Source: Pascua guehoae
Lineage: Eukaryota > Basidiomycota > Tremellomycetes > Trichosporonales > Trichosporonaceae
Length of the DNA stretch: 64,000 nt
Direction of reading: 5' to 3'
NCBI GenBank assembly: GCA_001600415.1
Contig: BCJX01000006.1
Location: 1,734,364-1,798,363, forward strand
A model generated the notes under the pieces. It saw only the letters and a list, made by a program, of their open reading frames with translations, was not told the origin of the DNA and did no database searches. Positions 5,348 through 40,498 of this stretch are shown in pieces; positions within the stretch are counted from its first letter, which is position 1, and each line of letters opens with the position of its first letter. Position numbers and translations under genes: made by a program.

Positions 5348-5858
5348 CATGCCTACTGCCTGCCGACTGTGGCTGCATGCAGCGCCTGCCTCCCACCTGC
5401 AGCCCGCCTGCCACCTCGTGGATGGAGCGCGTAACAGCAACAGTTAACAGACACCGACGTGCATGCATGTATCCTCTAGACGTAGAACCTCCGCCACGCC
5501 GCGGTTACAACGCCGATACTCGTGCCTAGCATGCAGCAGCAGTTGTGTGGACAGACAGCTGGCCCCCTGCTACCTAGCCGTAGCGTGTAGTAGCCAGCGT
5601 GCAACGTGCAAGGGCCGCCGCCCCCTTTGTGGTACCGTACCCGTGCGCGTGCATGCACACACAAGCCCTCCTCCCCCTCCGCCCGCCCCGTCCCACAGAC
5701 CATCATCATTGACGACCACATCACCACCATCATCAACATACTTTCCATCCTCTCCTCGTCCATCTTTTCACACCTCCCTCCACGCACCCACCACGACCCG
5801 CTCGCATGTCCTCATCCACCATCGCTTAAATCCCGCCCCGTTCCACCCATCCGCGATC
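4856..5858. promoter_or_regulatory. Divergent promoter region between SMN and Rho GEF genes
   Basis: This 1-kb stretch contains no recognisable gene. It holds a tetranucleotide array and, from about 5660 to 5850, a pyrimidine-rich tract (CT, CAT and CAC runs) directly upstream of the Rho GEF start, a layout typical of fungal promoters and 5' leaders. Confidence 0.5.
5313..5346. repeat. (CTGC)n microsatellite
   Basis: Eight perfect CTGC units followed by a partial unit; lies in the intergenic region upstream of the Rho GEF gene. Confidence 0.9.
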
Positions 5859-8800
5859 ATGGCCACCAACCACCAACGGCCGTCGTCTGGTTCGACGTCT
5901 GACTGGCTTTCCTTTGAGTTTGGCTCTTCGTTATCCGCCGACGATCTCCTTCCTTCCTTTCCATCCTTTGAATCGTCCGCGACTGCCAAAGCACAGCCTC
6001 AGTCATCATATAATGGACGCCCATATGGTGGCGGCAGCAGCAGCAGCAGCGCCGAGTACGGCCAAAGTGCGAGTGATGCACGGTATTATAATGCCGACCA
6101 TGGCCGAGTCTCTGCGCACAGCCATGATCTTGGCGGCGAAGGCTACCGACACGCCACGCCGCTAGCTCCCTCGTCACCTACGCCTGCCGCCGCTGCATCG
6201 CACACATCCATGTCACTCGGCCCCTCTTCGACTGGCGCACATGGCACCAATAATGTTGCCCATGGCGCGTCCGCCAGGTCGTCCCTGTCTGATGCCGGTG
6301 CGAGTGCGGGGTATGCGGGGTCTTCGTCTCATCCCTCGTACCCTTCCAATGCCGGTCATGCACCGCCTCTATCGGCTGCGCCCACAACCGCGCCCGTGCC
6401 CAACCCAGCTCGTGTCTCTGCTTCTCATCTCCCGCAAACGCCAGAACGGCACTCCATGATGATGAGCGGTGGCCATCGCGATACTTCAGTGCGTCGCGCT
6501 CTGCCAACACCACCCACACGCCCACTCTCAAACGACCAACTATCCACGACACGACCTCCCAGTCAAGTTCCCCCATCTCTGTCTGGACGCCGCCAGTCGA
6601 GAGCATTGCCCACCCCACCAGGCGGCGCTCCCAACGCATTCTCCTCGCACGGCTTTGATTCCAGGCCCCTTCCCTCTCAACCGCCGCCTGCGCCGCATCG
6701 CGCATCGTCCACTCCTTCCCTTCACGGTGGGTCGTCGGCGCCGCAAGCCCCTAGGTCGCCAGTGCAACCAGCCCACGTGACCAACAACGCGTCGCCATCG
6801 CCTGCAGACTTTGGTGGGGTGAGACGTACGGGCACATCGTCGACAACATCGACGCACCATACCTCGTACGACGGACACGGCGACGTGAGCGTTACACCCA
6901 ACACGTCCATGTCGAGCAGGTACTCGCACGAAAAGTCTAGTGGATACCATCGCTCAGAGTCGGCCATCCCTGAGGTACCCCTTGCCACGCCAGAGGTGGT
7001 GCTGCACGAGGCACCTCAGAGACACGACCGAGGCAACCAGTCTGGCGGCGATCAACGCACCAATTCATACGGATTCCCAGCGCCTGGGCTTCCCCCAACG
7101 CCCAAAGCTCCGCCCATGCGCACATTGGATCACAAGCCCAGCTTCCTGCACGAGCGGGACGCAAATTCCACAATGGTGGCTTCGCCATCCGTCTACTCAC
7201 CAGCACGAACAGACTTCCCAAGCCCGAGCGTTGACACCACTCCATCGGCCACCCAGTTATACGACATGTACGCGGACCGCGCCGACGATTACGACCAGGG
7301 TCTCGAGTCGTCCGAGGTTGGGCGCGAGCTTCGCCAAAACCATGCCAACGAGTCAGAGGACTACCTCAATTTCCCGTCATCCAGCAACCAGTTGCAGGTC
7401 AACGACTCGGGTGCAGTAGGCTCTTCGTCTCACGCACCTGATCTATCGCCGTCATGGGCCGAGCAGTCACAGCCACCGTCGCGCTGGGTACAGAACAAGC
7501 TCTTGCTCCACCAGATCCACCAGGACTATGACGAGGACGTTTACGACGACGAGTATGGGTCCAGTGCAGGCGAACTCGAAGACGAGGTCAATGACATTCG
7601 CTTCTTCAACCCTGCTCTCATTACCGAGTTGGCTGTCCAGGTGCGCGACAATGTGCCCCGGGGCAACCATTTCAAGTCGGGCATCGTGTGGGGAGGCACC
7701 TTTACTGGCAACGACCTAGTGGTGAGTAGTTTCCAGTCGGAAACGCTTGGCGGTGATGCCGCTGACACGCGTTCCTGTAGTCTTCGATTCAGCAATTCCT
7801 TCCCAAGTACACCCGCGAGTCGGAGAATGACCGGCGGTTTGCCTTGATCACGGCGCGCACGCTGCAATCACAGCTCTTTGTCTTTGAAGTTGAGTGGGAG
7901 GACACGCCGATCCGCGACGCTGGCGACGGCGTGTTCAAGTTTATGAGCGAGATGGAGGGCCTTGGCGACGCCCAGCTCCCGAGCGGCGTCCTCACCATGG
8001 CGACGAAATGCTACTCGCCGGGATGTGCGGCCGGTAGCAACTGCTACGCACCGCGATGCCCTAACAAGACACCGCCCGGCGACGTCCTCGCCAGCATTGT
8101 CGACGAGGAGCCTCCTGCGGCTTCGAGCAATACTCAGGCCTCGCTGGTCCAAAACGATACCGACTGGGCTGCAAACATCGACCCCCTGCTCTTCAGCGAG
8201 CTCACCGATAGCCAGCGTGAGCGGCAAACAGCAATCCGCAAGGCTATTCGTTCCGAGACAGAGTACGAAGCCGACCTGGCAGCCGTTGAGCAGGTATTCA
8301 TTACCCCACTGCAGACTGCCAACCCGCCGATTTTCCAGCAGTATGGCAAGCTCGAGCAGATTGTGCGCCAGATCTTTATCAACATTCTCGATATTCGCCG
8401 CGCATCTCGTCGTCTCCTTGACAACTTTGCGATTCGTGCCCGGGAGCAGGAGCCTCTGATCAACATTGTTGGCGACATCTTCCTGGAGGCAGCCACCGAC
8501 TTCCGTGCGCTCTATTCGGAATACGTTGACAACATGCCCGCATCAAAGGAGGCGTTGACGCAGGCGCTCGAGGAGAACGCACAGTTTGCCCGTTGGGTCG
8601 ACTCGGTGTCCAACAGCGCGAGCCATCGCTGGGACTTGCGGTTCCTGCTCGAACGGCCCGCCACGCACCTGAAAGAGTACCCATCTATCATTGAGGAGAT
8701 TCTCAAACACACCGATCTCGAAGACCCAGACTATGACTTTATCCAGGAGGCGTTGACGTCGATCCGCAACATTTCATACGTCTCGCAACTGCGACTCTTC

Positions 8801-13421: not shown

Positions 13422-16023
13422 CTACTGAAAGCCGCGGATGCCGAGAATCCTGCGCACGTCGGTCACGAACCGCAGGCTGTCGAGGACGGGTATGCTGTGC
13501 AGGAGCGCCTCGTCGTTGGGGTCTGAAGTCCAGCCTTCGATGGGGAGGGCGTTGGCTGTTGTCAGCGGGGAGGGGGGGAGGGGGGGACGCCGGGGGGCAT
13601 AGGTAGGGCAAGTGGGGCATCGGGCAGCATGGGAATGGTTCGAGACGTCGATGCCGACAGAAGAGCACGCTGGTGGACGCATGGAGTGGAACGCGCAGAG
13701 CACGCCACGCGTCGCATCAAAGGGGCATGAAGAGCCGCCGACGCGAGATGACGACACAAGGACGTGCGACCCACAACGACATGACCACCGAATACGACGG
13801 CGATCGGCTGCCTGAAAACCCCACAAGACATGACCGCCAGCCAAGACTCGTTCCCAACAAGGCCACGGCAACGGGTCCCAACGTCACACGCAGACTCACC
13901 CTTATTCCAACTATACGATATTGGCGAATTGTCCATAAAGCACACCTTGCCGAGGTCTGGCTCGACGACGCCGAGGTCTTTAATGTAGCTGCCGTTTGGC
14001 TGGAGGTGGCAGCTCTCGCGGTAGAGGCGTTTGGCAAAGAGGCCGCGGCCGTTGTCGAGCCAGTCAATCACCGGGTCGGCGTACTCGGGCATCGAGGCCG
14101 TGAAGATGACGAGCGTGTACCATGATGCGACCTGGGGTTAGTGTGTGTTTGGCAGGAGGTAAGGGTGGAGAGCTGTAAGGCGGTGTTGTTGTGAACAGGG
14201 TGGGACGTGCAGGTCCACTCTCGTCCATGTCTGCCAGAGCCAGGCCGCCCACTTGCGCAATACCGGGCTCTGGACTGTAGGATGTAGGCCCCCCCGCCTC
14301 TGCCTTTGTGAGACTGGCCGGGCTTAGCAGCCCGATGGTGTCACGACTTGGCCCTCATCGTCGGCGTGGCGAGGCGCCTTGGCCTCGACCAAACACTGCC
14401 TCTTGGCTTCATACTCGGCTTCGCCGCCACCGACGACAACATCCTCGTCCTCGACGACGACCCCGACCTCGACTCCAACAGACTTTGTCCTCGTGCTCGA
14501 CCTCGTCCTCGACCTGGACCTTGTCCTCGTCCTCGACCTTGTCCTCGACCTCATCCTCGACCTCTCGGCTCCCCGACCTCTCGTCTCAACCTCGACATCT
14601 TCGGCTGCTGGACCCAACCTCAACCACCCTTCCGCACCACTACCGACGACGCACGCCCGCACGCCCGCTCCGTACTCACCTTTTTGAGGAAAAAGTCGAC
14701 ATACGGGCGCTTGTACACATGGTACGTCGTGCTGCGGCCATTCAAGACGACTTCGACGGTATGCCCCTCGCGCCTGCGTTTGCCGCCGAGGAGGCCCGGG
14801 CCGAGGCCGAGGAGGCCGCCGCCGGCGTGTGACGAGCCAATGGGGCGCGACGTCGAGTGGATGAGGGTCTCGTCGAGGTCGAGAATGAGCGTCTTTTGGA
14901 GGTGGAAGGGCGTCGTGTGCGGGCGCGGCACGAGGGTGGGCGTGACGCTGCGGTGGGGGACGGCGGGGACCGAGGGGTCGAGGAGCGACGTGGTCATGGG
15001 GTTTGGGAGAAGCCGCGGGGTGCGGCGCGCGGGCGCGAGGATGGACTGGGGTTGGTGCTGAGAAGATGTTTGGGAGCAGGTCTGGGTCTGGGACTGGGAC
15101 TGGGAGGGGATCTGTTGGATGGGCTGGAGCTGGTTCGCGGGGGTCGGGGTAGGCGCGAGGGGTTGGGGGTGGGCGGGACCGGCGGCTGCGGGGTCGAGGA
15201 CGCCGTTGATGGCGACCGTGTCCTTGCTCTGGGCCGAGCGGAGGCGGAAGGAAAACGTCGGTTCGGGGGTGCGGCGGGGCGCAAACTCGTCGTCGCTGGG
15301 TCCGTCTGGCGTCTCGGTCCCCACATCGGGCGCGCGGGTTACCGGGTCGACCCAGCCGCCGCGCGAGTACCCGGGGGTCCCGTGGCGGTGGGGGATGAGG
15401 GAGTGGGGGTGGTCGGCGTCGTGGTCCTGGTCCTGGTCCTGGTCGGAATGCTCGGCCTCGGCCTCGGACGCCGTACCCTCGTCGCTACTCAAGTGCGGCG
15501 CGAGGCCGAGGACGGGCTGGCGGCGCTCGAGCTCGAGCTGCTCGAGGTCGACCTCGGCGGGTGCCTCGAGCTGCCTGCGGATCTTGGTGCGGAGCGACCG
15601 CACTGCGCGCGTGTCGCCTACGAGCGAGCGCCAGAACGAGAGGAGGATGGACCAGAGCGCGAGCGCGACGCGGAGGAGGAGCGGGGTCGTCGGAGGCGGC
15701 AGCTTGATGCTCCGGCTTGTTGGTGGGCGCCTGCCGCGACGCCGGCGCAGCCGGCGCGGGGACGACGACGACGACGACGAGGGGCCAGAGGTAGGCGACG
15801 AGCTGGACGAGGGGTGCAATGGGGAAGACGACGATGGGGGCAATGACCCCGCCGACGTCGAGTTGAACGACGCCGATAACGGCGACGGCCCCGCGAGCCC
15901 GCTTTTACGCACCAGAGGCGACGGCGAGGACACGGGCGCGGCGACGGGCGTCACCGCGGCGGCTGCGCGCCGGCTGGGCCCCGCGAGGCCAAAGAACGAG
16001 TCGAGCCGAGAGAGCGTGTTCAT
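13422..16023 (-). CDS. NEM1: Nuclear envelope morphology protein 1 (Nem1/CTDNEP1-type phosphatase)
   Basis: Three exons on the minus strand: 16023-14680, 14131-13900, 13555-13422, 569 residues. The N-terminal third is Ser/Pro/Arg-rich and carries one hydrophobic helix (around residues 107-125, LLLRVALALWSILLSFW). The catalytic FCP/SCP-type haloacid dehalogenase fold starts at LILDLDETLIHS (nucleophile Asp382, Asp384), continues through YHVYKRPYVDFFLKK, SWYTLVIFTASMPEYADP, LYRESCHLQPNGSYIKDL, and VCFMDNSPISYSWN, and ends with DDEALLHSIPVLDSLRFV-type sequence (here DPNDEALLHSIPVLDSLRFV). Nem1 with Spo7 dephosphorylates the lipin Pah1 at the ER/nuclear envelope and so controls phospholipid versus triacylglycerol synthesis. 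The insert GGLLGLGPGLLGGKRR after the DxDxT motif is usual in fungal members. Confidence 0.92.
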
Positions 16024-16922: not shown

Positions 16923-16923
16923 N
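16923..16923. other. Ambiguous base (N) next to a poly-G run
   Basis: A single N precedes an uninterrupted run of 12 G, so the homopolymer length is probably unresolved in the assembly. Confidence 0.95.
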
Positions 16924-18204: not shown

Positions 18205-21200
18205 TTACTCGTCCGAGTCGGCGTACATGCGCACGGTCACGTTCATCGCCTGGAGCTCCTGGAACAGAAGCTGTGGGGTTAGCATATGTTGTTTTGATTT
18301 GTGCGGGGGAATTGCACGACCGTGAAACTTGAATGCCAAATTTCAAAAGGAGGCAATGGGGACAGTGGACAATGGGAACAATGCCACTTCAATGCACGTC
18401 GTCTCGACGACTCGTTCCGAGTCGCCTCGAGTCGTCTCGAGTCGTCTCATCCTACTCACCTTTGCCGCATAGGGGATGAAGATTTGGCTAATCTGCGTGT
18501 GGTTGCGGCAGACGTTGCAGTGGAACTCTTGCTTTTTCAAGTTTGCGATTGCGGTGAGGCCACACTGGTCGCACACGTGGATGCGGAACGCGTCCGAACT
18601 GTCAAACATGCGTTCCTTGAGGAAGGCTGCAATGCCGTGCGAAATCATACAGTTGTGGACCTGGATCGAGTTGGCGAGGAAACTGTTGGAGCCGGGGACA
18701 CTGATGTCGTAGGTGAGGTGTGAGCCGGCATCTGTAGCGCCCATAAACGTCGCGTTCCAGACCGGGAAACCGGCGAGGTCGCGGCTGACCGAGTACACGG
18801 GCGAACCATCCTTGTCAGGGTTAGAAATACCAGGAGAGGGCTGGAAGAAGTTCGTCGCGCCGTGGTCCGCGAGCCATTTAGGAATGTCCATCTTGAGCTT
18901 CATGCCGGCAGCGTCGATGGCGTACAAGCCTCGGATCGCATCCTCCACAGCCTGGTACGTCGGAATGGCGAGCGAGCGATCGATGTAGACCTCGTCTTCC
19001 ATTTCCTCCGTGGTGACGGCGATGGCCTTGGTAATGGGCATGTCCAGCTTCATACCATTGTTGACCATGACGGCCGTCGCGTACCCAGTAAGCTCCAGGA
19101 CACGCCGGATGAAGCGGCGACGTTGGTCGAGACTGTACTCGCGGGCACGGTAGTAGCTGGCGGCGACCGAGAGGCGCTGCTGCTTGTGGCAGCACAGGCG
19201 GAAACCCACATTCTTGGCAAACGCACACAACTCTGCCATAGGGATACTCAGAGTGCCGTTCAAGACCGTGATGTCCGGACGGTCGCCTAAGTCGGGGTGC
19301 TTGTATGTAACGTCCACGAGGTTGGAGCGAAGGCAGGCACCGGGGACACCGCAACGTGCGAGAAGGTGGGCAATGCCACTGAAGGCGTCGACGAGCGACT
19401 GGCGGTGCACCTCAATCTTGCTCATCGTGTAACCAATGGAATGCCACGAGTGGTCCGTTGGGAGAGGCGCGATGCCGTTGCCGCCGAAGAGTCCACCCAG
19501 GAACTCGCGGACAACGGACACTGGGCAGGCGGGATCAAGGATGAAGGCGGGGAGGAACTCGGCATTCATGATGCGCTTGCCAGGCACCACACCGACGACT
19601 TGGTGGAGATCGCGTAGAATCTTCTCTGAAAGAGAAACCGCGTAGTAGTTGTAGGTATCCTTAGGGTGCTGGATGGTGTGGTTGTAGCCAATGGCGACAT
19701 CTAGATCCGAAACCGCCTGCTCCGCATCCATCAGGTGGCCGAACGCCATGTAGCCACTGTACTCGCCAGTCGTAGCGGTGAAGCTCATGGTGCCGTCGGC
19801 CAAGAAGTAGCCCAGGATGCGCGCAAATGCATGGGTAGCGGCGATGTTCGCCGCAGAGTCCATGGTGAACGTGCGGCCCACTGTCGGAAGCGAGAGGCGG
19901 AAGTCCGCGAGATGAGTAGGGTCGTCGTCCTCTGGGGTGTAAAGCGGCGCGTCGGGGCCCTTGCGGACCTTGGTCGTGCCGGGCACCAGGTCCCTTGCTG
20001 CCACCCAGGTTCCGTCGCTGGACATGATCTGGTGCTCGGGCGTGCACACCATGTCTGAGCCGTCGCTGAAGACCAGGCGGATGCAGTCCTTGGGCTGCGG
20101 GCGGGGGAGGTGGGCCGTCGGCTGCGTGGAGACAAAGGATCCTTCGGTGTTGTCAACGGAGTCGGCGTAGGACAGCACCTTGGGGAGGTCGGCGAGATCC
20201 TTAATGCGCATCGAGACGCCGGACGCGAGCGTGACGGGGGTATCACCGTGCAGGCAGTCGCGCTCCATTTCACCGAAACGCAGACCACCACCACGCGAAC
20301 GACCCTCGACGGGCTGGCGCACGAGAATCTGCATCGGTCCACGGGCACGCGCGTGAATCTTGTCGTCGACCATGTGCTTGAGACGCTGGTAGTACGTGGG
20401 GCCAAAGTAGATTTGTGCCTGCACCTTGCGGCCCGTGTGGCCGTGGTACATGACCTCAAAGCCACGCGACTGGTAGCCACGGTTCGCCAAGAGCTTGGAC
20501 ACACCCTCGACCGTCAGCTCGGTGAACGGCGTCGCGTCGCCCTCGCGGCCGGTGAGCGTCGCCAGCTTGGACAGCAGACATTCGACCAAGTGCCCAATTG
20601 TCATACGCGACGGAATGGCGTGCGGGTTGATGATAATGTCGGGCGTAATACCCTCGGCGGTAAATGGCATGTCCTCTTGGCGATACGTGATACCAATCGT
20701 ACCCTTCTGACCGTGACGCGACGCAAACTTGTCGCCAATCTGCGGCACACGCGTCGAGCGGATGCGAATCTTGACAAACTTGAGACCGTCCGCGTTGGTC
20801 GTGAGCATGACCTGGTCGACCACACCTTGCTCGGTGCTCTTCATCGGTGTCGACACGTCGCGTTTGGTATGCGTGGCCGAACGCTGGCCCAGCTCCTCAG
20901 AGTCGGCCGGGATGGGCGCCGTCTTGCCAATGATAATGTCGTCGCCATTGACGTTGGTGGCCGGGGTGATGAGACCGTCATTGTCGAGCTTGGCGTACCG
21001 GTCACTGCCGCCGTGGCCCTTCATTCGCAACGTCTCGTGCGGGTCGGGCTTTTCAAACGTCTCGACCTTTTGCATGCCGACCATCTTCTCCGTGTCAATG
21101 TAGGATCGGTAGTAGAGCGAGCGGAACAGGCCGCGGTCGACCGAGCTCTGGTTCATAATGACCGAGTCTTCCTGGTTGTAACCAGAGTAGCACATGATGG

Positions 21201-23870
21201 CAACAATTGCGTTTTGCCCAGCGGGGAGCTCGGCAAACTTGAGGTACTTCATCGACTGCGTCGTCGCCAGTGGTGACTGCGGGTAGTACAGGATGTTGGC
21301 CATCGTGTCCATGCGCAGCTGGTAGTTTGTCAGGTAGATGCCCATGGCCTGCTTGCCCATGGCCGACTGGTATGTGTTACGCGGCGACTGGGGTGGTTAG
21401 TTGGGGTCCTATGCGTATGCACAGACACTTACCTGGTTGTGGTCTGGGAACGGAATGATACTGGCACAAACACCGAGAATCATACTTGGGTGAATCTCGC
21501 AGTGGGTATAGTTTTGCGACCAGTTTTCACTCTTGATACGCGCCGTCGCGTCAAACGACTCCGTGTTGTGGTCGGCATGTGCGCGCGAAAGCTCTTCACG
21601 CGAGCTGTACTTGCGTGCCGCCTCGAGGTCCTCGTTTGTCATGGCGATGAGGATGGTCTCCTCCTCCTCGGCGTCGACATACTCGATGATACCCTCGGAC
21701 AACAGCTCGTCCCATGCTGGGCCGTCCGCCTCGACGACGCCGTCGGCAATGTCGTCGAGGCGGTCGAGATGCTCGCGCTTGAGACGCATCGTTTGTGTGT
21801 CCTCGTCCACAATGAACAGTGGGCGACACACACGGCCAGAGTCGGTGTACAGTCGCAACTCGCGTTCACGAATGTCTCGCACAATGGACACCTCGTGCTT
21901 GAGCTGGCCACCACGACGCATCTGCAAGAGGTTTTGGTGGAGCGTCACCGCGTCGCGGTGGATACCCATCCACACACCGTTGACAAACACCTTTGTGGCG
22001 TTTGGCGCGTTGGTGTACTCTGCCTGGTCCTCGAGACCCCACTCTTCCAAAAACTCCATGACAGGCGCAGAGTACGAGCCGACCGAAACGTACGACATGA
22101 GCGCGAGGTTCTTGACGAGACCACACGCCTGTCCTTCGGGCGTCTCGGCAGGGCACACCAAGCCCCAGTGGGTATTGTGCAGCTGGCGTGGACGTGCGAG
22201 CTTTGTATCGCGACCAACGGGGGTGTTGGACCGCCGCAAGTGTGACAATGTCGACGCAAAGGTATACCGGTTCAACACCTGCGACACACCCGCCTTGGCC
22301 TGCATGGCCTTGGCCTGGTCACCCCAGTTACCCGTCGCAAGCGAATACTTGAGACCGTTGGTAATGGTCGTCGGCTTGATGGCGTTGACAAGCGAAAACT
22401 CCTTGTGCGTTTCAATGCACTTTTGCAGATGGCGGTAGACGTCGGTACGCAGTTTGCGGAACTGGATGCGGAACAGGCTCGCAAGCAGCGGGCCTGCGAG
22501 ATCGAGACGCTTGACACCAAAGTGGTCACGGTCGTCGACCTCACGACGGCCGAGCGCCGCCGAGCACAGACGGTGGACCATGTAGCCGAGGAAGTAGGCC
22601 TTCTTCGACTCGAATCCCTCCGACACTGAGACGTGGGGGAGCATTTCCTTTTGGAGAATGTCAAACGCCTGGCGCTGACGCTGCGACTTGGTCGCCGCCT
22701 GCGTCTGCTGTCCTCGACGACCGATAAAGTCGAGCGCAGTGTCACGGTCCTGCACCGCAAACGCCTCCTCGATACATGGCCGGAGCATCTCGAGCATGCC
22801 CGTGTCGTTGGGGTCGAAACAGACGTGCGAGAGGACATCGCGGTCGGGGACAATGCCGAGCGCGCGGAAGATGATGACAATGGGAATGTCCGTCTTGGTG
22901 TACGGGAGCGACGCGCGAATGACCGAGCCGGTGGTCGTGCGGTCGGATGGCCTCGACATGTTGACGACCGTCCTGGACGGCATCTTGCCGCCCTTTTCCA
23001 TCTGACTCGTCACCTCGGAGAAGAACATGCCGTCGGCACGCTTGAACGCATAGACGTGGTTGGCGGCCATGCGCTCCTGTGCAATGAGGACCTTTTCTGA
23101 TCCGTTGATGATAAAGTATCCGCCCTGGTCGTACGGGCACTCGCCTAAGTTGTAAAAGTGGTCGTCGGGGAGACCGTGAAGTAAACAAAAGTTGGAGCGG
23201 ACCATGACTGGCACCTTGCCGATCCAAATCTTGTCTTCCTCTGCGGGCTGCATGACGCCATTTTCGTCGAGCGCGGGGCGCCAGTCGGCCTCGAGTGGGT
23301 CGTCGACGTTGCCGGCTGTAAACGTCGATTTCCTCATGTCGACATAGAGCGGTGCCGAGTAGGTGAGGTTGCGTAAGCGGGCCTCTTGTGGGAATAATCC
23401 GACCGTCTGACCGTCCATCTCAGTCATGGCCACCTTTGCTAAGTAAATCTGGCCAAAGGTAATCTCGTATCGCCTCTGTGCGTGTCAGTCACCACAGTAG
23501 GGTGCGTCTGTGATCATTCTCACCGTCTCATCACCGTAAACGCCCGTATGTTGGGTGAATTGATCCAGTGTCAACTTTGAGTTTTCGTCGACGAGCTCCT
23601 GCATCGTGTTCTCGACAAACTCGTTGAACGACTCGAGCTGCTGGCGGACAAGGCCCTTTTCGTCAAAGAACGAGTTGATGACCTTCCAGTAGTCTTCCTG
23701 GGAGATTGGCTCCTCTTCCTCGTACGCCGCGCCGCCGTTGGCATCGTTGTCATAGTCATAGTCGGGGTTGTACTCGTAGCCGTCGGCAGCCGCCGATGTG
23801 TCTGTGAACGCTGTAGGCGAGCTCTCTCGCACGTGGCACATGAGGCCACTAAGTATTCACCTGCATCCAT
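18205..23870 (-). CDS. RPB2: RNA polymerase II second-largest subunit RPB2, containing an intein
   Basis: Five exons on the minus strand: 23870-23861 (only 10 nt), 23810-23524, 23475-21433, 21387-18460, 18270-18205; phases agree and give a 1777-residue precursor, or 1242 residues after removal of the 535-residue intein, close to the usual RPB2 length. Diagnostic segments: [104 protein letters not shown], and the C-terminal zinc-binding CDQCG ... CNVC. The protein forms, with RPB1, the active centre for mRNA synthesis. Splitting of GEMERD|CMISHG by the intein is described separately. The protein ends in the short exon [18 protein letters not shown]. The promoter is shared, divergently, with EBP2. 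Confidence 0.97.
18652..20256 (-). mobile_element. Intein with LAGLIDADG homing-endonuclease domain inserted in RPB2
   Basis: In-frame insertion of 535 codons between GEMERD and CMISHG of RPB2. It begins with Cys1 ([13 protein letters not shown], splicing block A), has block B with TPEHQI (Thr72, His75), and ends with [14 protein letters not shown] (block F) and SIQVHN (block G, His534-Asn535), followed by Cys+1 of the C-extein; this is a complete class-1 splicing site set. Between the splicing halves lies an endonuclease-like region with two LAGLIDADG-type motifs: [12 protein letters not shown] (Asp154) and [13 protein letters not shown], where the expected acidic residue is Asn260 (AAC). 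Being in frame in an essential, highly conserved gene, it must splice for the polymerase to work. No intron interrupts it. Confidence 0.95.
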
Positions 23871-31845: not shown

Positions 31846-32349
31846 CGAGGTTGTTGGGCACCGTAGCGTTAGTCGTGATGGAGAGTTAGGTGTCAGTGTC
31901 CGGGATGCATGTCAAGTGGTCAAGATGGGCTGTATGGCAGAGTCGATGGGCAAGATGGATATAAACCGAGGCCGAGGCCGCCGGGCGCCGATACATATCG
32001 ACCTGGACAGCAGCTGCCTGCAGCCAGCCTGGCTGCCTTTGCTTTCGTTGGCTGCGATGACGTAATTGCCACACAAACAGAAAGGCCTACCAAAGATGCA
32101 CGTACTCTCGTTACGCGGTCCACCCGACAACTCGGAGTGGTATCTCATCGTGTCCATCGCATCCCCTCTGATCCGATCACCCTCGACAAACGTCAACACG
32201 TCGATACGTCAACACCTCTCAATTACTCTCCGATACACCCTACGCATACCTCGCATGCCCCACACCACCGCCACCGACCTCTGATCGCTCCACGGCCACG
32301 CTGGCCACCCGCGACCCGCGACCCGCGACCCGCGACCTCGGCACCACTG
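31846..32349. promoter_or_regulatory. Divergent promoter region of the hydrolase and SPO71-like genes
   Basis: No gene is recognised. A short CGCGACCC direct repeat (about 32308-32338) lies just before the SPO71-like start. Confidence 0.45.
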
Positions 32350-35300
32350 ATGCCCGCCGCCGCACATCCCCCTCCCGCCGCTCCGCCGGCGGGAGCAGCG
32401 GGGCCGTCTATGCCCCCAGACCCCAACAATGCGGCTGCGGGCCCCAGTAACAGTGCGGGGCCGAGCAGTGCCGGTGTGCGCGGGGCGGCGGGTGCCAACG
32501 GCGACACGCCACCACTCGAACCAGCACCGGCCGTCATCGACTCGTCTTCACACACTGAAGGCCACGTCCTGCCGCGCCGCTTCCTCGGTCCTATCCCGGA
32601 CAGTGTGGTGACAGACTCGTACACCAAGGACCGGCGACGTGCGTTCCGGAATCTCCGGCGCAAGACGCTCGTCAAGCTCGCGGGCGGTGACGAAGTGCTG
32701 GGTGTCGGCGCCGGCGCACGAGGTCCAGGGCTGGGGCGCGCCGCGGGCCGTGCTGCCGATGCGGCGCGGAAAGCGAAAATCCGCGTGCAGCGGCGCAACG
32801 CTGCGGACAACTCTGTCCACTCGGTCGACCTCGACGTCGACCAGCTGTACACCGACTCGAGCAGCTCGGACGACGAAGGCGGCGGGTGGATGTGCTGGCG
32901 CAAGAAGAAGGACGACCGCCCCGTTAGGTCCAAGGGGAATAATCCCAACATGGTCATTTCGGAAATGTGGGTCGGGAACAGCTTTGATATCGGGCGCGAG
33001 TTTGAGACTGTCGGTGGAGAACCACAGCCCGATCCCGGAACAGCGGGCGCGCCAGTCGACACGCATCACGAAGCCGTGCAAAAGGTCAAGAAAGCGCTCG
33101 ACGCAGAGCGGCCAGCGCTCGGGATCGACACTGGAGACGGTCACGGCCGTAGCGGCCGCGGCGGTCCTACCGGCAACAAGGGAACTGCCGATGACGGTGC
33201 TACAACCCATGCGACAGTTGTGACCACCAAGAGTGCTCCCATGCGGCTCCAGGTGCAGGACGGTGGCGAGGACAAGACCTTACACAGGGTTGACTATGCC
33301 GCTGTCAATGAACGGTCACCATGTCCGCCCCACTCATCCGCCCATGCTGCTAGCGATGACAAGCCAGACACGAGCAATGCCCCGCCACAAACTTCCCCCG
33401 ACGTGCCAGGGCGTCAAAACAGCAACGACAAACTTGGACCCAGTGAACCCGCACACGTGACAAGCAAGCCTATCGTCGACGAGCCCCAATCCTACTTTTC
33501 CACCCCGCCGCGGCGCCCCAAGTCCAAGTCGAGCACGCCAGATGCACTGGCAACACCTGGTAGCTTTCTTTCTGCCACTGCACGCCCAGGCTTACGGGTA
33601 GGACCGGGTTCGTTTGTGACCGCCCGCACCCCGCAAGAATCGCCGCTGCGCCCACCGATGCCAGCGAGCATGTCGACGCAGGAGACGTTTATGACTGCAC
33701 GATCAGGCAGTCATGATTCAGTCGACTCGGACGTGTCAAACCACTCGTCGTTTTCCTTTTCCGCACCCCGCCCGCCAGCACTGGGTCTGGCTCCATCTAC
33801 CCACGGGAGCCAGGGGGGGACAGCAAGCCAGATGTCGTCGTCTCCGGGTGGCAAGTCTGGGAGGAGCGGCATGTCTCAGCGTCCGCTAATTGAACCAGAG
33901 GACGGGTTTTCCCTCAGCCCTCCTCACTCGACTGTGCCGCCGCGGCAGCATGCTGACCTATTCAAGAAGCGCTCGGCAGGGACACCAGGCACAGGAGGCA
34001 GCATTGCCGGGTCGTCCAAGAAGATCAAGCGGCGACTCAAGTCGGCCCTACGCAACGGCCGCCCGCGCGGCGGAAGCAACGAGGATAACCGGTCGTCTCG
34101 ACCGTCCCCGCCCAAGCCGTCCAAGACGGTCCAGTTCCCCGTCGACTTTGCAGAGGTCATGCCTGAAGACGACGAGGGACAGACTGTGCGGCAGGGAAAC
34201 AAGGCGCCCGCGGATCCCGTAGACGTGCTCACACGCTCTGGAGACGAGGTCGCGGGTACCAGTTCCGAGGCGCAAGGCGGCGGCTTTGTGATTGACAACG
34301 ACGACTTTATGCCTGGTGGCGTCGTCATGCGCGATCGCGTTCTGATCCGTGTGGGACGGCATCGCGAAGAGCCACTCAGGGAGTTTGATGAGCCTACACA
34401 GGTGTGTCCAGTTGTGCAATACCATAATGCTCGCTCAAAGCTGACTAGTTGTAGCGCCGAAACCCGTGCGATCGACTCGATCCCTTTGAAGAGTATATTG
34501 CTGGCCTGACCATGACGTCGCTCGACTTGTACCAAGACTGGGTGAGTGCGAGCACCCTAAATTCATCGCTGTCGCTGGCCGCTAATGTCAGCACTGGTGG
34601 ATCACTGAAAAGCTCAAAGGCCACAAGCGCCTGCGGTACTCTATCCCTCTTTCCCTACCAACGTCACTGTCCATCTTCAACCAGCGGGACATGTCTCTGT
34701 GCGTGACGTGCCCCTGGGAAACTGTGCTCCGGAATACGCTCCGCCACTTGGATGGACAGGACAAGAGCCAGACGTCTCGGTTGGACAGGGTCAAGAACAG
34801 CAAGGCTCTCGAGAGCTTGGGGATGGGGAGGAGCGGTACGGCCGTGTTTGTGATCAAGTTTGGCGAGCGGTCTCGTGCGCTTGACTGGCACTGGTACATT
34901 GCAGGGCAGCTCGACTATCACTTGCCAAAGCAGGTGGACATTCGCATGCCATCGCTGTCACAGACTGTGCGCATGCCGATTCCCGACGAGGCGGCATCGT
35001 CGACGGTTAACCGTGCGTCGACGATCAAACTGCTCTGGGACGTGACCCTCGCGAACCGCGACCACGTAAAACTGTTGCGCCAGCTCGAGACAACCCCCCG
35101 CTTGGACCTGGCGTGGAGGAACACGGACGCGTCCCTCGACTGGGTCGCGTACTCGACGACTGTGACCGGACGGAATCGCGAGTGGGCTCTGCTCGCGAGC
35201 TTTGCCCATGCGCATGACGAGCACAGCAGACGCACCCTCGAGGTCCGCGATGCGAGCCACCACCGTAACCGTGTACACCTCGAGGACGGCCGGTTCCTCC

Positions 35301-36867
35301 AAGAGCCACCCGGCGTGGAGGGCTACCTGATCCGCCGGCCGGCGGGACCTTCACAATCTCAAGTCATCTACGTCTCGACCAACGACGGACTCATTTTCAT
35401 CTCGGCTGCACACTCGGGTGTACCCCCATTACACCCCAAACCCACAGGTACCACTCCCGCAGACGTGTTCCCCGAACTCCACAAGCAATTTCTCATTGCG
35501 GAAAAGCGGCGAATGGCAGCGTTTATTGAGCGCTGTAACGGATGCCTCAACTTTTGCGACATTGTCAGAGTCGACCTTGTTCAGCCTCACAACCGCGAAC
35601 AGACATCCCCGACGTCTCCGACATCGCCGCTTACGCGCATGTTTTCACGCACCCCGGCACTCCGCAAACCAAATTCGGATCAGCCCCTCATCAAACGCGA
35701 GGGTACGCGCGCCGAGCGCGAGTTTGACATTACGCTATACGGCGGCGACACTGTGGTACGCCTCGAGGCACACACGCCGGCCCTTGCCGCAGAGTGGGTC
35801 GAACGGCTTTCTGCTCTTGCACAGTACTGGTGTATGCGGACGCGCGTCGACGCGCGGCAGACCATGGACGCTGTCAAGTACAACCAAGCTGGGCGCGACG
35901 CCTTTGTTGAGACGGCCGATCCAGCGACTGAGAAGATTTTGAACCATGTCTGGAACTGGTGCATCATTGACGGTTGCCGCGCCGTCACACTCTCGGGATG
36001 GGTGTTTATCCGCCGCGGCGCGTTTGCGTACTTTAGGTGAGTGGGCAGAGAAGGGGCCTTAGTCGCATGGAATGGTGCTCACGCTTATAGGTCGTGCTAC
36101 CTGGTCCTTACGAATGGCTGCCTCGTCACTTTCCGTGTCAAGGGCAGCATTGGCCTTCAACCGCGGAGGATGGTATATCCCCTCTTTGGTGCCTATGTAA
36201 GTCGCCGCCAGTTGACCCGGCATCGTCTCGTCCTAACCCCTACAAGGTATACTCTGGGCTCCTCGCCACGGACGAGCTGGTACAACCACCGCACGAATCA
36301 GCCTTCAACCCCTCAGCCCGTGTCTACCCCGACGGCCTCCAGACGACGGATGGCGCTGAGGACACGACGTTTGTGGTGCGCATCACGTGGCCGACTGGAC
36401 GATGGGCACAACAGCACCCGTGGAGCATGGAGGAGGGTGAACACTGGACACCACCGCCACTTCGAGACAGGCCCGCTCAACTGCTCATCTGTCGCGCACG
36501 GTCCAAGGTGAGTGCAGATTGTCGGATCTAGCCGATGCCGGTCCGAGTCGGTCCGGATGGGCAGAAGGTTCGGCCAAATGAAGAGAACCGTGACTACCCC
36601 GAGCAACTGTCATCACGTGTAGACGTTTGCAAGACCTCAATCGTGCACCGCCCAGGCGAACATGCTGACCCATTGCAGCTCGAGCGTGACCGGTGGGTGT
36701 GGGCGATCAATGCGGAGATGGAACGGTGCGCACGCGCCCACGTTGGCCAAGAGGAGAAGCTGCGCAACACTGGGACTCTGCCCCGCCACCAAACACTCGT
36801 GCACCAGAACGTTAGTGGAAATTCGAGCCGCCGAAACAGCTCGTCGTGGCACCGAGCGAGTGGATGA
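32350..36867 (+). CDS. SPO71: SPO71-like tandem PH-domain protein
   Basis: Six exons: 32350-34401, 34455-34541, 34592-36036, 36091-36196, 36247-36507, 36679-36867; phases agree, 1379 residues. The first 620 residues are disordered, Ser/Pro-rich. The conserved part begins about residue 650 (VMRDRVLIRVGRHREEP), then RRNPCDRLDPFEEYIAGLTM, LDLYQDWHWWITEKLKGHKR, a first PH domain region with VEGYLIRRPAG and VVRLEAHTPALAAEWVERL, and a second PH region GWVFIRRGAFAYFRSCYLVL ... TGRWAQQHPW ... ERDRWVWAINAEMERC. This is the architecture of Spo71/Mug56, a peripheral membrane protein needed for forespore membrane size in meiosis in ascomycetes. Whether it has that role in a basidiomycete is unknown. The long N-terminal extension is a feature of this lineage. 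The frame is open further upstream; 32350 is the first Met in sequence-like context. Confidence 0.82.
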
Positions 36868-37653: not shown

Positions 37654-40498
37654 ATGGGTTACAGCAACATTCTCCCCTTTCCACACTCCAAGATGACTGT
37701 CGCGTTGAACGAGACGACCCCCAACGGCCCCAACGGCATCAAGAAGGCCAACGGCACAGCGGCGGCGGCGACGACGGACAGGACGGCGCTCAATGCCGGA
37801 TGGACGTTTTCCCAAGTGGCCTCGAAGAGCTTTCCGGACGTCGAGGAAGAGTGGGCAGAGTGCCAGTCGTTCCCGACGAGCGTGCACGTCGAGCTCCAGA
37901 AGGCGGGCAAGATTGCCGACCCCTACAAGGGTCTTGCCGAGTGGGACTGCCAGTGTGCGTGCGACGATAACGGAAAAGTCGGCTGGCGAGGCTGACAACG
38001 ATAACAGGGATCAACGAGGCCGACTGGACATTCAAGACGACATTTACCGCGTCCGAGGCGCAGCGCGCGGCAGGCGCGGCCGATCTCTTCTTCGAGGGTC
38101 TCGACACGTACTGCCAGATCCTGCTGAACGGCACCGAGCTCGCGACCACTTCCAACATGTTCATCTCGCACCGTGTATCGGTCGCCGGCAAGCTCGAGGA
38201 GACCAACACGCTCGAGCTGCGGTTTGCGGCGCCGCTCCTCGCGGCCAAGAAGGAGGAGGCGGAGAATGGCGGCAAGATGGCGCTGTGGAACGGCGACAGC
38301 TCGCGCCTGTACTCGCGCAAGGCGCAGTACGGCTGGGGCTGGGACTGGGGACCGGTCATTATGACTGTGGGTCCTTGGCTCCCAGTCTGGCTCGAGACGT
38401 ACGCGTACCGCCTCGACAACCTCCGTGTTGACACGGACGTCACGGGCGACAACTACGACGTGTGCACGCTCCAGGTCCGCGGCTTTGATGTTGTCGCTGC
38501 CGACGCCGACGCTGCGGCGCACAACGAGGGCAACAAGGTCGCATACACGCTCACCAACACTGCGGGCGATGTGGTCAAGCAGGCGGTCGTCCCGGCCTCT
38601 GAGCTCCCCACCTGGGAGGTCGACGGCGCCGATGCCTGGTACCCGATCAACTACGGCAAGCAGCCCCTGTACTCGCTCGAGGTGGCGCTCCTCGACGCCG
38701 AGGGCGCCACGCTCGCTGTCACAAACCAGCGCGTCGCGTTCCGCCACGTCGAGATTGTCCAGGAGGCATTCGAGGACCAGGAGGGCTCGAGCTTCCTGTT
38801 CGAGGTCAATGGCATCCGTGTCTTCTGCGGTGGCTCCAACTGGATCCCCGCCGACAACTACTTTACAGAGATTACCCCCGAGCGCTACCGCGCCTGGGTC
38901 GACCTCCTCATCCTCGGCAACCAGAACATGCTCCGTATCTGGGCCGGCGGCATCTACGAGCACGAGGCGCTCTACGACGCCTGTGACGAAAAGGGTATCC
39001 TCGTCTGGCAGGATTTCATGTTTGGTTGCGGTCTCTACCCCTCGTACGACAGCATCAACGAGAGCATCAAGGTCGAGGCCGAGCAGGCCGTCACCCGCCT
39101 CCGCACCCACCCCTCGGTCGTCATCTTTGCCGGCAACAACGAGGACTACCAGGTCGCAGAGGAGAAGAAGGTCGTCGACTACAAGGACAACAGCGGCGAC
39201 TACATGCACACAAAGTTCCCTGGGTGAGTACCCCATCCACACCGTGTCGATACACACGAGCTTACACTGCCCAGCCGCCACATTTACGAAATCCTCCTCC
39301 CCGAGGTCGTCCACCGCCTGTCCAACATCTTCTACTGGCCCTCGTCGCCATACGGCGGAAAAACGTCTGGTGACCTGACCGTCGGCGACGTGCACCAGTG
39401 GAACGTCTGGCACGGCACCCAGGAGCCATGGGCCAACTGGGACAAGCTTGCCGGCCGCTTCGTGTCCGAGTTTGGTATGCAGGGCTACCCCAACATCCGC
39501 ACCGTCCGCGAGTGGTTCAACAAGGACGATCTCGAGACGCAGTTCTTCCCCCAGTCGCGCATCTCGGCCAACCACAACAAGGCCGATGGCTTTGAGCGCC
39601 GCCTCGAGCTCTACCTCATGGAGAACTTTAGGCACGCATTCGACATGCCCTCGTACGTCTACTACACCCAGGCCATGCAGGCCGAGACCCTCGGTGCCGC
39701 GTACCGCCTCTGGCGCCGCAACTGGAAGGGCCGCGGCAAGGAGTACACGTCTGGCGCGCTCGTGTGGCAGATCAACGACTGCTGGCCGTGCGTCTCGTGG
39801 GCTATTTGCGACTACTACCTCCGCCCCAAGCCCGCCTTTTACGCCATTGCCCGTGAGCTCCGCCCATACACTGTTGGCGTGAGTAAAACCAAACAACTTG
39901 ATAACCCATGTGCTGACGCTTCTAGATGGCCCGCAAGGAGATCAAGACGGCGCGTAACGACACCACCATGGCCTTCTACGACATCCACCACGAGATCCAG
40001 CTGTGGGGCTGCAACTCGACCCTCGAGCCCAAGGAGGCGACCGTCGAGCTCGTCTCGGTCGACCTCGAGGAGGGTGAGGTCGACCGCCGCACGTTTGACG
40101 TGACGCTCGCGCCCAACTCGTCCACCGAGATCTGGAAGGGCGACGTCCCTGGCCAACCCGTGCGCACAAACGTCTCGCAGGTGCCCCGCCCCATTGTCGT
40201 CGGTGCCCGCCTCATCGACGCCGACGGCACCGTCCTCGCGCGCTACGCCAACTGGCCCGAGCCGTGGAAGTACCTCACGTTCCCCGACCCCAACCTCCAG
40301 ATCTCGGTCGACGGCGAGCAGGTGACCATCACTGTCGACAAGCCCGTCAAGGGCGTCGTCCTCGACGTCGAGGGCGACGACGCCCAGTGGTCCGACCAGG
40401 CGCTCGACATGATGCCCGGCGACCCCCAGACCGTCACCGCCAAGGGCCTCAATGGCCGCAAGGTCTCGGTCCGCTACATTGGCGACGGGAGCGCATGA
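37654..40498 (+). CDS. Beta-mannosidase, glycoside hydrolase family 2 (intracellular type)
   Basis: Four exons: 37654-37954, 38008-39223, 39275-39878, 39926-40498; phases agree, 897 residues. The order is the GH2 sugar-binding domain (NEADWTFKTTF, YCQILLNGTELATTSNMF), immunoglobulin-like domain, TIM barrel with FCGGSNWIPADNYF, NMLRIWAGGIYEHEALYDAC, acid/base in AGNNEDYQ (Glu479) and nucleophile in SEFGMQGYP (Glu571), then WQINDCWPCVSWA and C-terminal beta domains. The W-IND-WP motif and NED/EFG pair are typical of beta-mannosidase. No signal peptide is present, as in the intracellular mndB class that removes the terminal beta-mannose from manno-oligosaccharides. A start at 37693 or an extension to 37465 is possible; 37654 has the best context (ACGACCATGG). 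Confidence 0.95.

Follow-up and report, generated by a model that had tools for sequence, protein, structure and literature searches.

Does the RPB2 gene of Pascua guehoae, which encodes RNA polymerase II subunit 2, carry an intein that still splices, and how would such an element have come to sit in this gene? The gene lies in a stretch of 64,000 nucleotides of contig BCJX01000006.1 (the window; all positions below are those of this stretch), and a segment of 535 codons interrupts its coding sequence. We hold, with a probability of roughly 0.7, that the segment is an allelic RPB2-a intein that splices, that its endonuclease is probably dead, and that its family has spread horizontally among distant eukaryotes. 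Our observations concern the place and frame of the segment, its predicted fold, motifs and relatives, the catalytic residues that have been lost, and a mismatch between the rates of intein and host; from these we infer splicing, the dead endonuclease, and horizontal transfer.

An in-frame insertion in RPB2

The insert occupies 18652-20256 on the minus strand (1605 nt, or 535 codons, free of stops) and lies between the GEMERD and CMISHG segments of RPB2; an earlier note on this DNA had placed it correctly to the base. Its first codon is TGC (Cys), its last two are CAC AAC (His-Asn), and TGT (Cys+1) follows. A minus-strand open reading frame (ORF) at 18343-21360 spans the insert plus its RPB2 flanks, and the exon encodes RPB2 domain 6, then the 535 open codons, then domain 7.

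18460..21387, minus strand: RPB2 exon holding the whole intein (open frame; compared by eye with Trichosporon asahii RPB2)
Upstream 21388-21432, downstream starting at 18459, minus strand: GT-AG introns bounding the exon
20257..21387, minus strand: N-extein part of the exon, RPB2 domain 6, ending in GEMERD (Pfam PF00562; comparison with 3h0g_B)
18652..20256, minus strand: RPB2 intein, 535 codons (ORF reading, T. asahii match, model)
18460..18651, minus strand: C-extein part of the exon, RPB2 domain 7, starting with CMISHG (Pfam PF04560; comparison with 3h0g_B)

The earlier note had proposed a comparison with related RPB2 proteins, lest the segment be ordinary RPB2 sequence, and close relatives proved to read through the junction. 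Two metagenomic RPB2 proteins (P0106 and P0107; N-extein identity 92-93%) are insert-free there: GEMERDCMISHG. In the best-matching solved RPB2, 3h0g_B, which we take to be that of S. pombe, both flanks adjoin at D1125/C1126 with no insert. From end to end, the insert itself aligns with T. asahii RPB2 (61% identity, E 1.7e-208), which is not a chance match. Thus, the insertion is precise and in frame and has insert-free homologs, as expected for an intein. GT-AG introns do neighbor the segment in RPB2, and nothing else speaks for its being a spliceosomal intron or an ordinary RPB2 loop. Its own borders are TG...AC, not GT...AG, and its codons are open throughout; the T. asahii protein contains its counterpart from end to end, an intein fold is predicted for it, and close relatives lack it. 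We rejected both readings as vanishingly improbable.

Goodwin et al. 2006 defined the RPB2 intein sites a, b, and c, with b at column 1664 and a at column 1696 of their alignment, and described the a site as lying in the anchor domain with a Cys after the intein (PMC1635734). In P. guehoae and in six other RPB2 proteins checked, a plausible b site, IH/[SA]R (the slash marks the junction), lies 32 residues before the insertion point. As this spacing matches the published columns and a Cys follows, we take the insert to be RPB2-a, an assignment by position.

The nearest N-exteins among the named proteins listed are those of T. asahii (93%), C. oleaginosum (92%), and Cryptotrichosporon argae (91%), so the host probably belongs to the Trichosporonales, in agreement with the Tremellomycete host that the earlier note had supposed. 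Among the 120 best-scoring rows of the N-extein search, no annotated RPB2 was near-identical. By length and pattern, the RPB2 proteins of C. oleaginosum (1239 residues) and Cryptotrichosporon argae (1233 residues) have no intein. In the 33.6 Mb, 28-contig assembly, the P. guehoae intein was found at one place, and a search for a second copy gave none. A search of the same genome with PF14890 gave zero matches and missed this intein too, and is thus no evidence that other inteins are absent; its control run gave matches in 6 of 14 genomes. Two further PF00562 loci in the genome presumably encode the corresponding Pol I and Pol III subunits.

Splicing domain and endonuclease

The AlphaFold2 model of the intein (predicted local distance difference test, pLDDT, 89.4), structure matches, and sequence comparison agree on a Hint splicing fold with an inserted LAGLIDADG endonuclease.

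19948..20256, minus strand: N-terminal half of the Hint domain, residues 1-103, border chosen by us (TIGR01445 near cut-off, model, alignment)
20254..20256, minus strand: Cys1, first splicing nucleophile (C in 38/42 aligned rows)
20032..20043, minus strand: block B T-P-E-H, with T72 and H75 (T and H in 42/42)
18784..19947, minus strand: LAGLIDADG endonuclease and linker, residues 104-491, borders chosen by us (alignment, model, structure matches)
19792..19815, minus strand: first LAGLIDADG motif LGYFLADG, with D154 at 19795-19797
19474..19497, minus strand: second LAGLIDADG motif GGLFGGNG, with N260 at 19477-19479
18652..18783, minus strand: C-terminal half of the Hint domain, residues 492-535, ending in His534-Asn535 (TIGR01443; H and N in 42/42)
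18649..18651, minus strand: Cys+1 of the C-extein

T72, H75, D517, H534, and N535 are present in all 42 aligned inteins, and Cys1 in all except four, which are truncated. Together with Cys1, the block B TxxH motif, the terminal His-Asn, and Cys+1, this is the complete splicing anatomy of a full-length intein that the earlier note had described. Intein family models gave borderline scores overall; of these, the C-terminal profile TIGR01443 (intein_Cterm) scored 21.9 bits, above its cut-off of 15.6. Since the splicing residues are all present, the P. guehoae intein very likely splices. Class 1 inteins proceed through an N-S shift at Cys1, transfer to Cys+1, cyclization of Asn helped by His, and an S-N shift. 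Here, the Hint domain would excise itself from the RPB2 precursor after translation by the same steps, using Cys1, Cys+1, and Asn535 with His534, so that GEMERD is joined to CMISHG and a normal RPB2 is left. As RPB2 is an essential gene and its sequence around the site is invariant, copies unable to splice should not persist.

The endonuclease region matches the structures of E-DreI, I-Tsp061I, and I-DmoI, and both LAGLIDADG helices are present in the predicted fold. The first motif keeps its catalytic D154; in the second, the catalytic Asp is replaced by N260. As one of the two metal-binding Asp residues is Asn, the enzyme is probably unable to cleave, being at most a nickase, and homing is probably dead. 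Could it nevertheless be active, with Asn260 tolerated and the intein still homing? The remainder of the domain is present and well modeled, D154 is kept, as is K227, which we assign as a candidate for the Lys of block D, and the metagenomic copies P0013 and P0026 likewise have Asn at the second Asp site. However, Butler et al. 2006 described both Asp residues as critical for activity and the endonuclease as decaying after fixation; among the yeast VMA enzymes reported there as inactive by experiment, only two from Torulaspora retain both Asp (PMC1508164). We regard continued activity as improbable. The LAGLIDADG enzyme would once have cut the empty RPB2 site, copying the intein into it, and the intein would now be inherited along with the RPB2 gene. 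The term homing element, used in the earlier note, probably describes the past of this intein and not its present.

Relatives at the same site

The database searched consists of predicted proteins, and each search scored only those candidates with the most words in common, so that additional carriers may have escaped detection. The search with the P. guehoae intein returned 102 homologs, of which 28 have the insert exactly at GEMERD/C..[SA]HG by pattern: T. asahii, Capsaspora owczarzaki, Porphyridium aerugineum, and 25 metagenomic proteins. A further five metagenomic rows belong with them (four without the N-terminus, one with a diverged flank), which brings the metagenomic RPB2-a inteins to 30. 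The other 69 sit in aconitase, PP1, DNA polymerase B, RPB2-like proteins at other sites, and others, and are 19-37% identical where aligned. Sorochytrium milnesiophthora came to light when the Capsaspora intein was used as the query.

The T. asahii intein (P0002; 519 residues), whose record name does not mention an intein, comes from the same order as our host. The inteins of Capsaspora (P0003; host in Filasterea) and Porphyridium (P0004; Rhodophyta) are 51% and 48% identical to that of P. guehoae; that of Sorochytrium (P0224; Blastocladiomycota), shrunk to 412 residues, is 41% identical to the Capsaspora intein and, in the alignment, 45% to ours. All three occupy the same site as C...HN/C. 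The metagenomic RPB2-a inteins (30 among P0005-P0048) are 27-31% identical over their full length, with the GEMERD/C site in 25 by pattern.

None of the five nuclear copies has both LAGLIDADG Asp residues: the pair reads D/N in P. guehoae, K/D in T. asahii, N/D in Capsaspora, S/N in Porphyridium, and G/C in Sorochytrium. Unlike these, 28 of the 30 metagenomic RPB2-a copies keep the pair intact, as do all seven of the inteins examined in other proteins. Fisher's test on 0/5 against 28/30 gives p 6e-5; as it ignores relatedness, we give it no weight. T. asahii lost the first Asp, now Lys, and kept the second, the reverse of P. guehoae, so that their last common copy, if shared by descent, most simply had both. 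These two Trichosporonales copies are a clear case of independent endonuclease decay.

The hosts of the metagenomic copies are probably mostly giant-virus genes. In the N-extein tree, which held 24 of the 25 pattern-matched metagenomic proteins (P0005 was dropped as too short), a branch of 1.09 separates most metagenomic from cellular RPB2; P0006 (37% of columns filled) falls on the cellular side, and P0010 and P0017 on an odd long branch. A structure search gave 525 viral matches, headed by a Cedratvirus RNA polymerase (TMq 0.82, 25% identity). Scans of viral_contigs with P0007, alignment A1, P0001, and P0018 as queries returned no relative, and a tblastn search of 50,697 phage records yielded a single weak match, over residues 1-95.

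Beyond the RPB2-a inteins, many aconitase inteins occupy a single site, CTT/C...HN/CIGNSGP (for example, P0027, P0031, and P0063), and are about 30% identical to the P. guehoae intein; the few named sources are bacterial or archaeal metagenome-assembled genomes. P0096 and P0102 are RPB2 proteins with related inteins at another site, NPH/C...N/C(I/V)PSRMT. An intein in a metagenomic PP1 catalytic subunit (P0016) is 32% identical to that of P. guehoae, has both Asp residues, and was placed beside the nuclear RPB2-a group (98/90, long branch).

Intein and host histories

The earlier note had suggested that intein and extein phylogenies be compared. We computed Kimura distances with column bootstraps and expressed each distance from P. 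guehoae relative to that of T. asahii. For Capsaspora, this ratio was 1.87 (1.29-2.82) on the Hint part and 1.40 (1.19-1.64) on the whole intein, as against 6.39 (4.43-9.85) on the N-extein; for Porphyridium, the values were 1.89, 1.65, and 6.99. For Sorochytrium, they were 2.17 (1.52-3.28), 1.88, and 4.34 (2.98-6.93), the Hint and N-extein intervals overlapping. The Sorochytrium intein is no closer to P. guehoae than to Porphyridium (Hint ratio 1.40, 1.06-1.86; whole intein 1.10, 0.97-1.25); its N-extein is clearly closer to P. guehoae (0.66, 0.52-0.84). Branch lengths proportional to those of the host protein were rejected on the Hint part (twice the log-likelihood difference 52, 6 degrees of freedom, p 1.9e-9); on the rest, the rejection was stronger still. 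Saturation does not account for this, as Hint identity is 25-40% with the nine outside inteins compared and 59-78% inside the group. The rate mismatch does not fit simple descent along with the host and favors an old horizontal spread followed by endonuclease decay.

For the trees, 103 inteins were cut out, and 50 entered the main tree (P. guehoae, the 28 pattern matches, and 21 others); the 53 left out were mostly aconitase inteins. Sorochytrium, found later, is included in a 19-row tree and not in the 50-row intein tree or the N-extein tree. The P. guehoae and T. asahii inteins are sisters with support of 100/97 and 100/98 in the 50-row and 19-row trees. The nuclear and metagenomic RPB2-a copies form separate clades in the 50-row tree, the metagenomic one (27 rows) fully supported.

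Were the two Trichosporonales inteins acquired separately, as a special case of horizontal spread? They differ at about 39% of residues and their N-exteins at 6.5%, and in the N-extein tree the intein-free C. oleaginosum is nearer to T. asahii (98/78, not starred). On the other hand, the two inteins are sisters, divergence can be rapid in an intein whose endonuclease has decayed, and one loss in the C. oleaginosum lineage would suffice. We consider separate acquisition doubtful.

Alternatively, an early eukaryote already had an RPB2-a intein, which disappeared from most lineages, survived in Trichosporonales, Blastocladiomycota, Filasterea, and red algae, and sped up in Trichosporonales. An ancient presence with many losses was favored by Goodwin et al. 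2006 (PMC1635734), and a P. guehoae, T. asahii, and Capsaspora clade was not rejected. Such descent, however, requires of the Hint part, which is still under splicing selection, a rate relative to RPB2 that is several times as high in the two Trichosporonales branches as in Capsaspora and Porphyridium. The Asp pair is also broken in Capsaspora, Porphyridium, and Sorochytrium, so a local speed-up is not accounted for by decay alone. An all-fungal intein clade was also mildly rejected (approximately unbiased (AU) test, 19-row tree, p 0.027), although this was one of three groupings and the Sorochytrium branch is long. We consider vertical descent from an early eukaryote unlikely.

Several points weigh against one part or another of our reading (splicing, a dead endonuclease, horizontal spread), and we gather them here. 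The N-terminal profile TIGR01445 (intein_Nterm) scored 24.4 bits, 0.1 under its cut-off of 24.5, and Pfam Intein_splicing (PF14890) matched with E 2.4e-4 and 21.4 bits, below its cut-off of 35.8. The Asn at the second Asp site is shared by P0013 and P0026. The AU test did not reject the clade of P. guehoae, T. asahii, and Capsaspora (p 0.21, and 0.33 in the 19-row tree) or, in the 19-row tree, that of P. guehoae, T. asahii, Sorochytrium, and Capsaspora (p 0.347); tree topology alone is only weakly decisive. Faster change after loss of endonuclease constraint in Trichosporonales could produce some of the rate mismatch without transfer, and Green et al. 2018 described fungal nuclear inteins as mainly vertically transmitted (PMC5784728). 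No direct virus-to-fungus donor was found in the intein tree, and as the nuclear and metagenomic copies form separate clades, viruses are at most an indirect link. Finally, GC content at third codon positions is host-like (0.785 in the intein and 0.788 in the neighboring extein), which weighs against any recent transfer; we rejected a recent arrival on this basis. Of the horizontal movement proposed by the earlier note, an old spread remains the better reading, given the mismatch of intein and N-extein distances, and a recent one does not.

Under horizontal spread, the intein family would have moved by homing between distant eukaryotes after their lineages split, and each copy would then have lost its endonuclease separately, through invasion, fixation, decay, and loss. 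If the P. guehoae and T. asahii copies were both inherited from one ancestral copy, intein evolution is fast, and the element should have spread to Capsaspora and Porphyridium long after these hosts had split; if they were not, more than one transfer into Trichosporonales took place. Local acceleration is the sole escape from both alternatives. We lean, by a little, towards the view that all five nuclear site-a inteins derive from an element much younger than the common ancestor of their hosts, which crossed supergroups by homing into a single invariant site of RPB2, perhaps via giant viruses, whose own RPB2 would have related inteins with intact endonuclease residues at that very site, and decayed separately in each.

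Elsewhere in the window

A neighboring ORF (14620-16023, minus strand) matches positions 1-51 of the 160-position profile PF03031, the beginning of an NLI-interacting-factor-like phosphatase domain, and its gene probably extends beyond an intron. At position 16923, a lone N stands next to a run of G, likely an unresolved homopolymer in the assembly. The long ORFs at 5463-7847 (plus), 31909-34509 (plus), and 37923-39896 (minus) had no Pfam match at E 0.001, and the one at 34691-36040 (plus) had only a sub-threshold Pfam match to the SPO71 PH domain.

Comparison with known RPB2 inteins

Fungal phylogenies often use RPB2 as a marker, and an intein overlooked in it can interfere with amplification and alignment. 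The present set also makes it possible to test by measurement if nuclear inteins are relics from early eukaryotes or old travelers between kingdoms. Goodwin et al. 2006 argued for relics partly from the lack of highly similar inteins in distant hosts (PMC1635734); the 51% identity between P. guehoae and Capsaspora, beside 61% between P. guehoae and T. asahii, is evidence of the kind they found lacking, and an origin from a young element, if true, would be the kind of case that they called missing. Within the titles and opening parts of abstracts searched, all from open-access literature, RPB2 inteins of Trichosporon, Capsaspora, Porphyridium, or Sorochytrium were not named, nor was this nuclear group or its rate mismatch with its hosts described. 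The T. asahii copy may well be catalogued in supplementary Table S1 of Green et al. 2018.

The interval between primers bRPB2-7R and 7.1R is presumably not the GEMERD site. Salmacisia buchloeana, a basidiomycete smut, is described as having RPB2 and RPB2-like inteins of 397 and 423 residues in that interval, with Cys1 and a terminal Asn (PMC10849329). With these and the allelic intein of T. asahii, an RPB2 intein in a Tremellomycete is less unusual than the earlier note supposed. That note had mentioned RPB2 inteins reported from chytrids and algae; Table 1 of Green et al. 2018 places Agaricomycotina and Blastocladiomycota under RNA-polymerase inteins (PMC5784728). The founder of RPB2-a is the Chlamydomonas reinhardtii Cre RPB2 intein; none of the 102 homologs was named as Chlamydomonas. 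By its description in Goodwin et al. 2006, the Cre RPB2 intein has 431 residues, ends in Gly-Asn, and groups with Candida ThrRS inteins (PMC1635734); its site appears to be alike, with a Cys following. Published work thus already covers RPB2 inteins, the a site, and the occurrence of RPB2 inteins in basidiomycetes, and the P. guehoae copy adds a further member.
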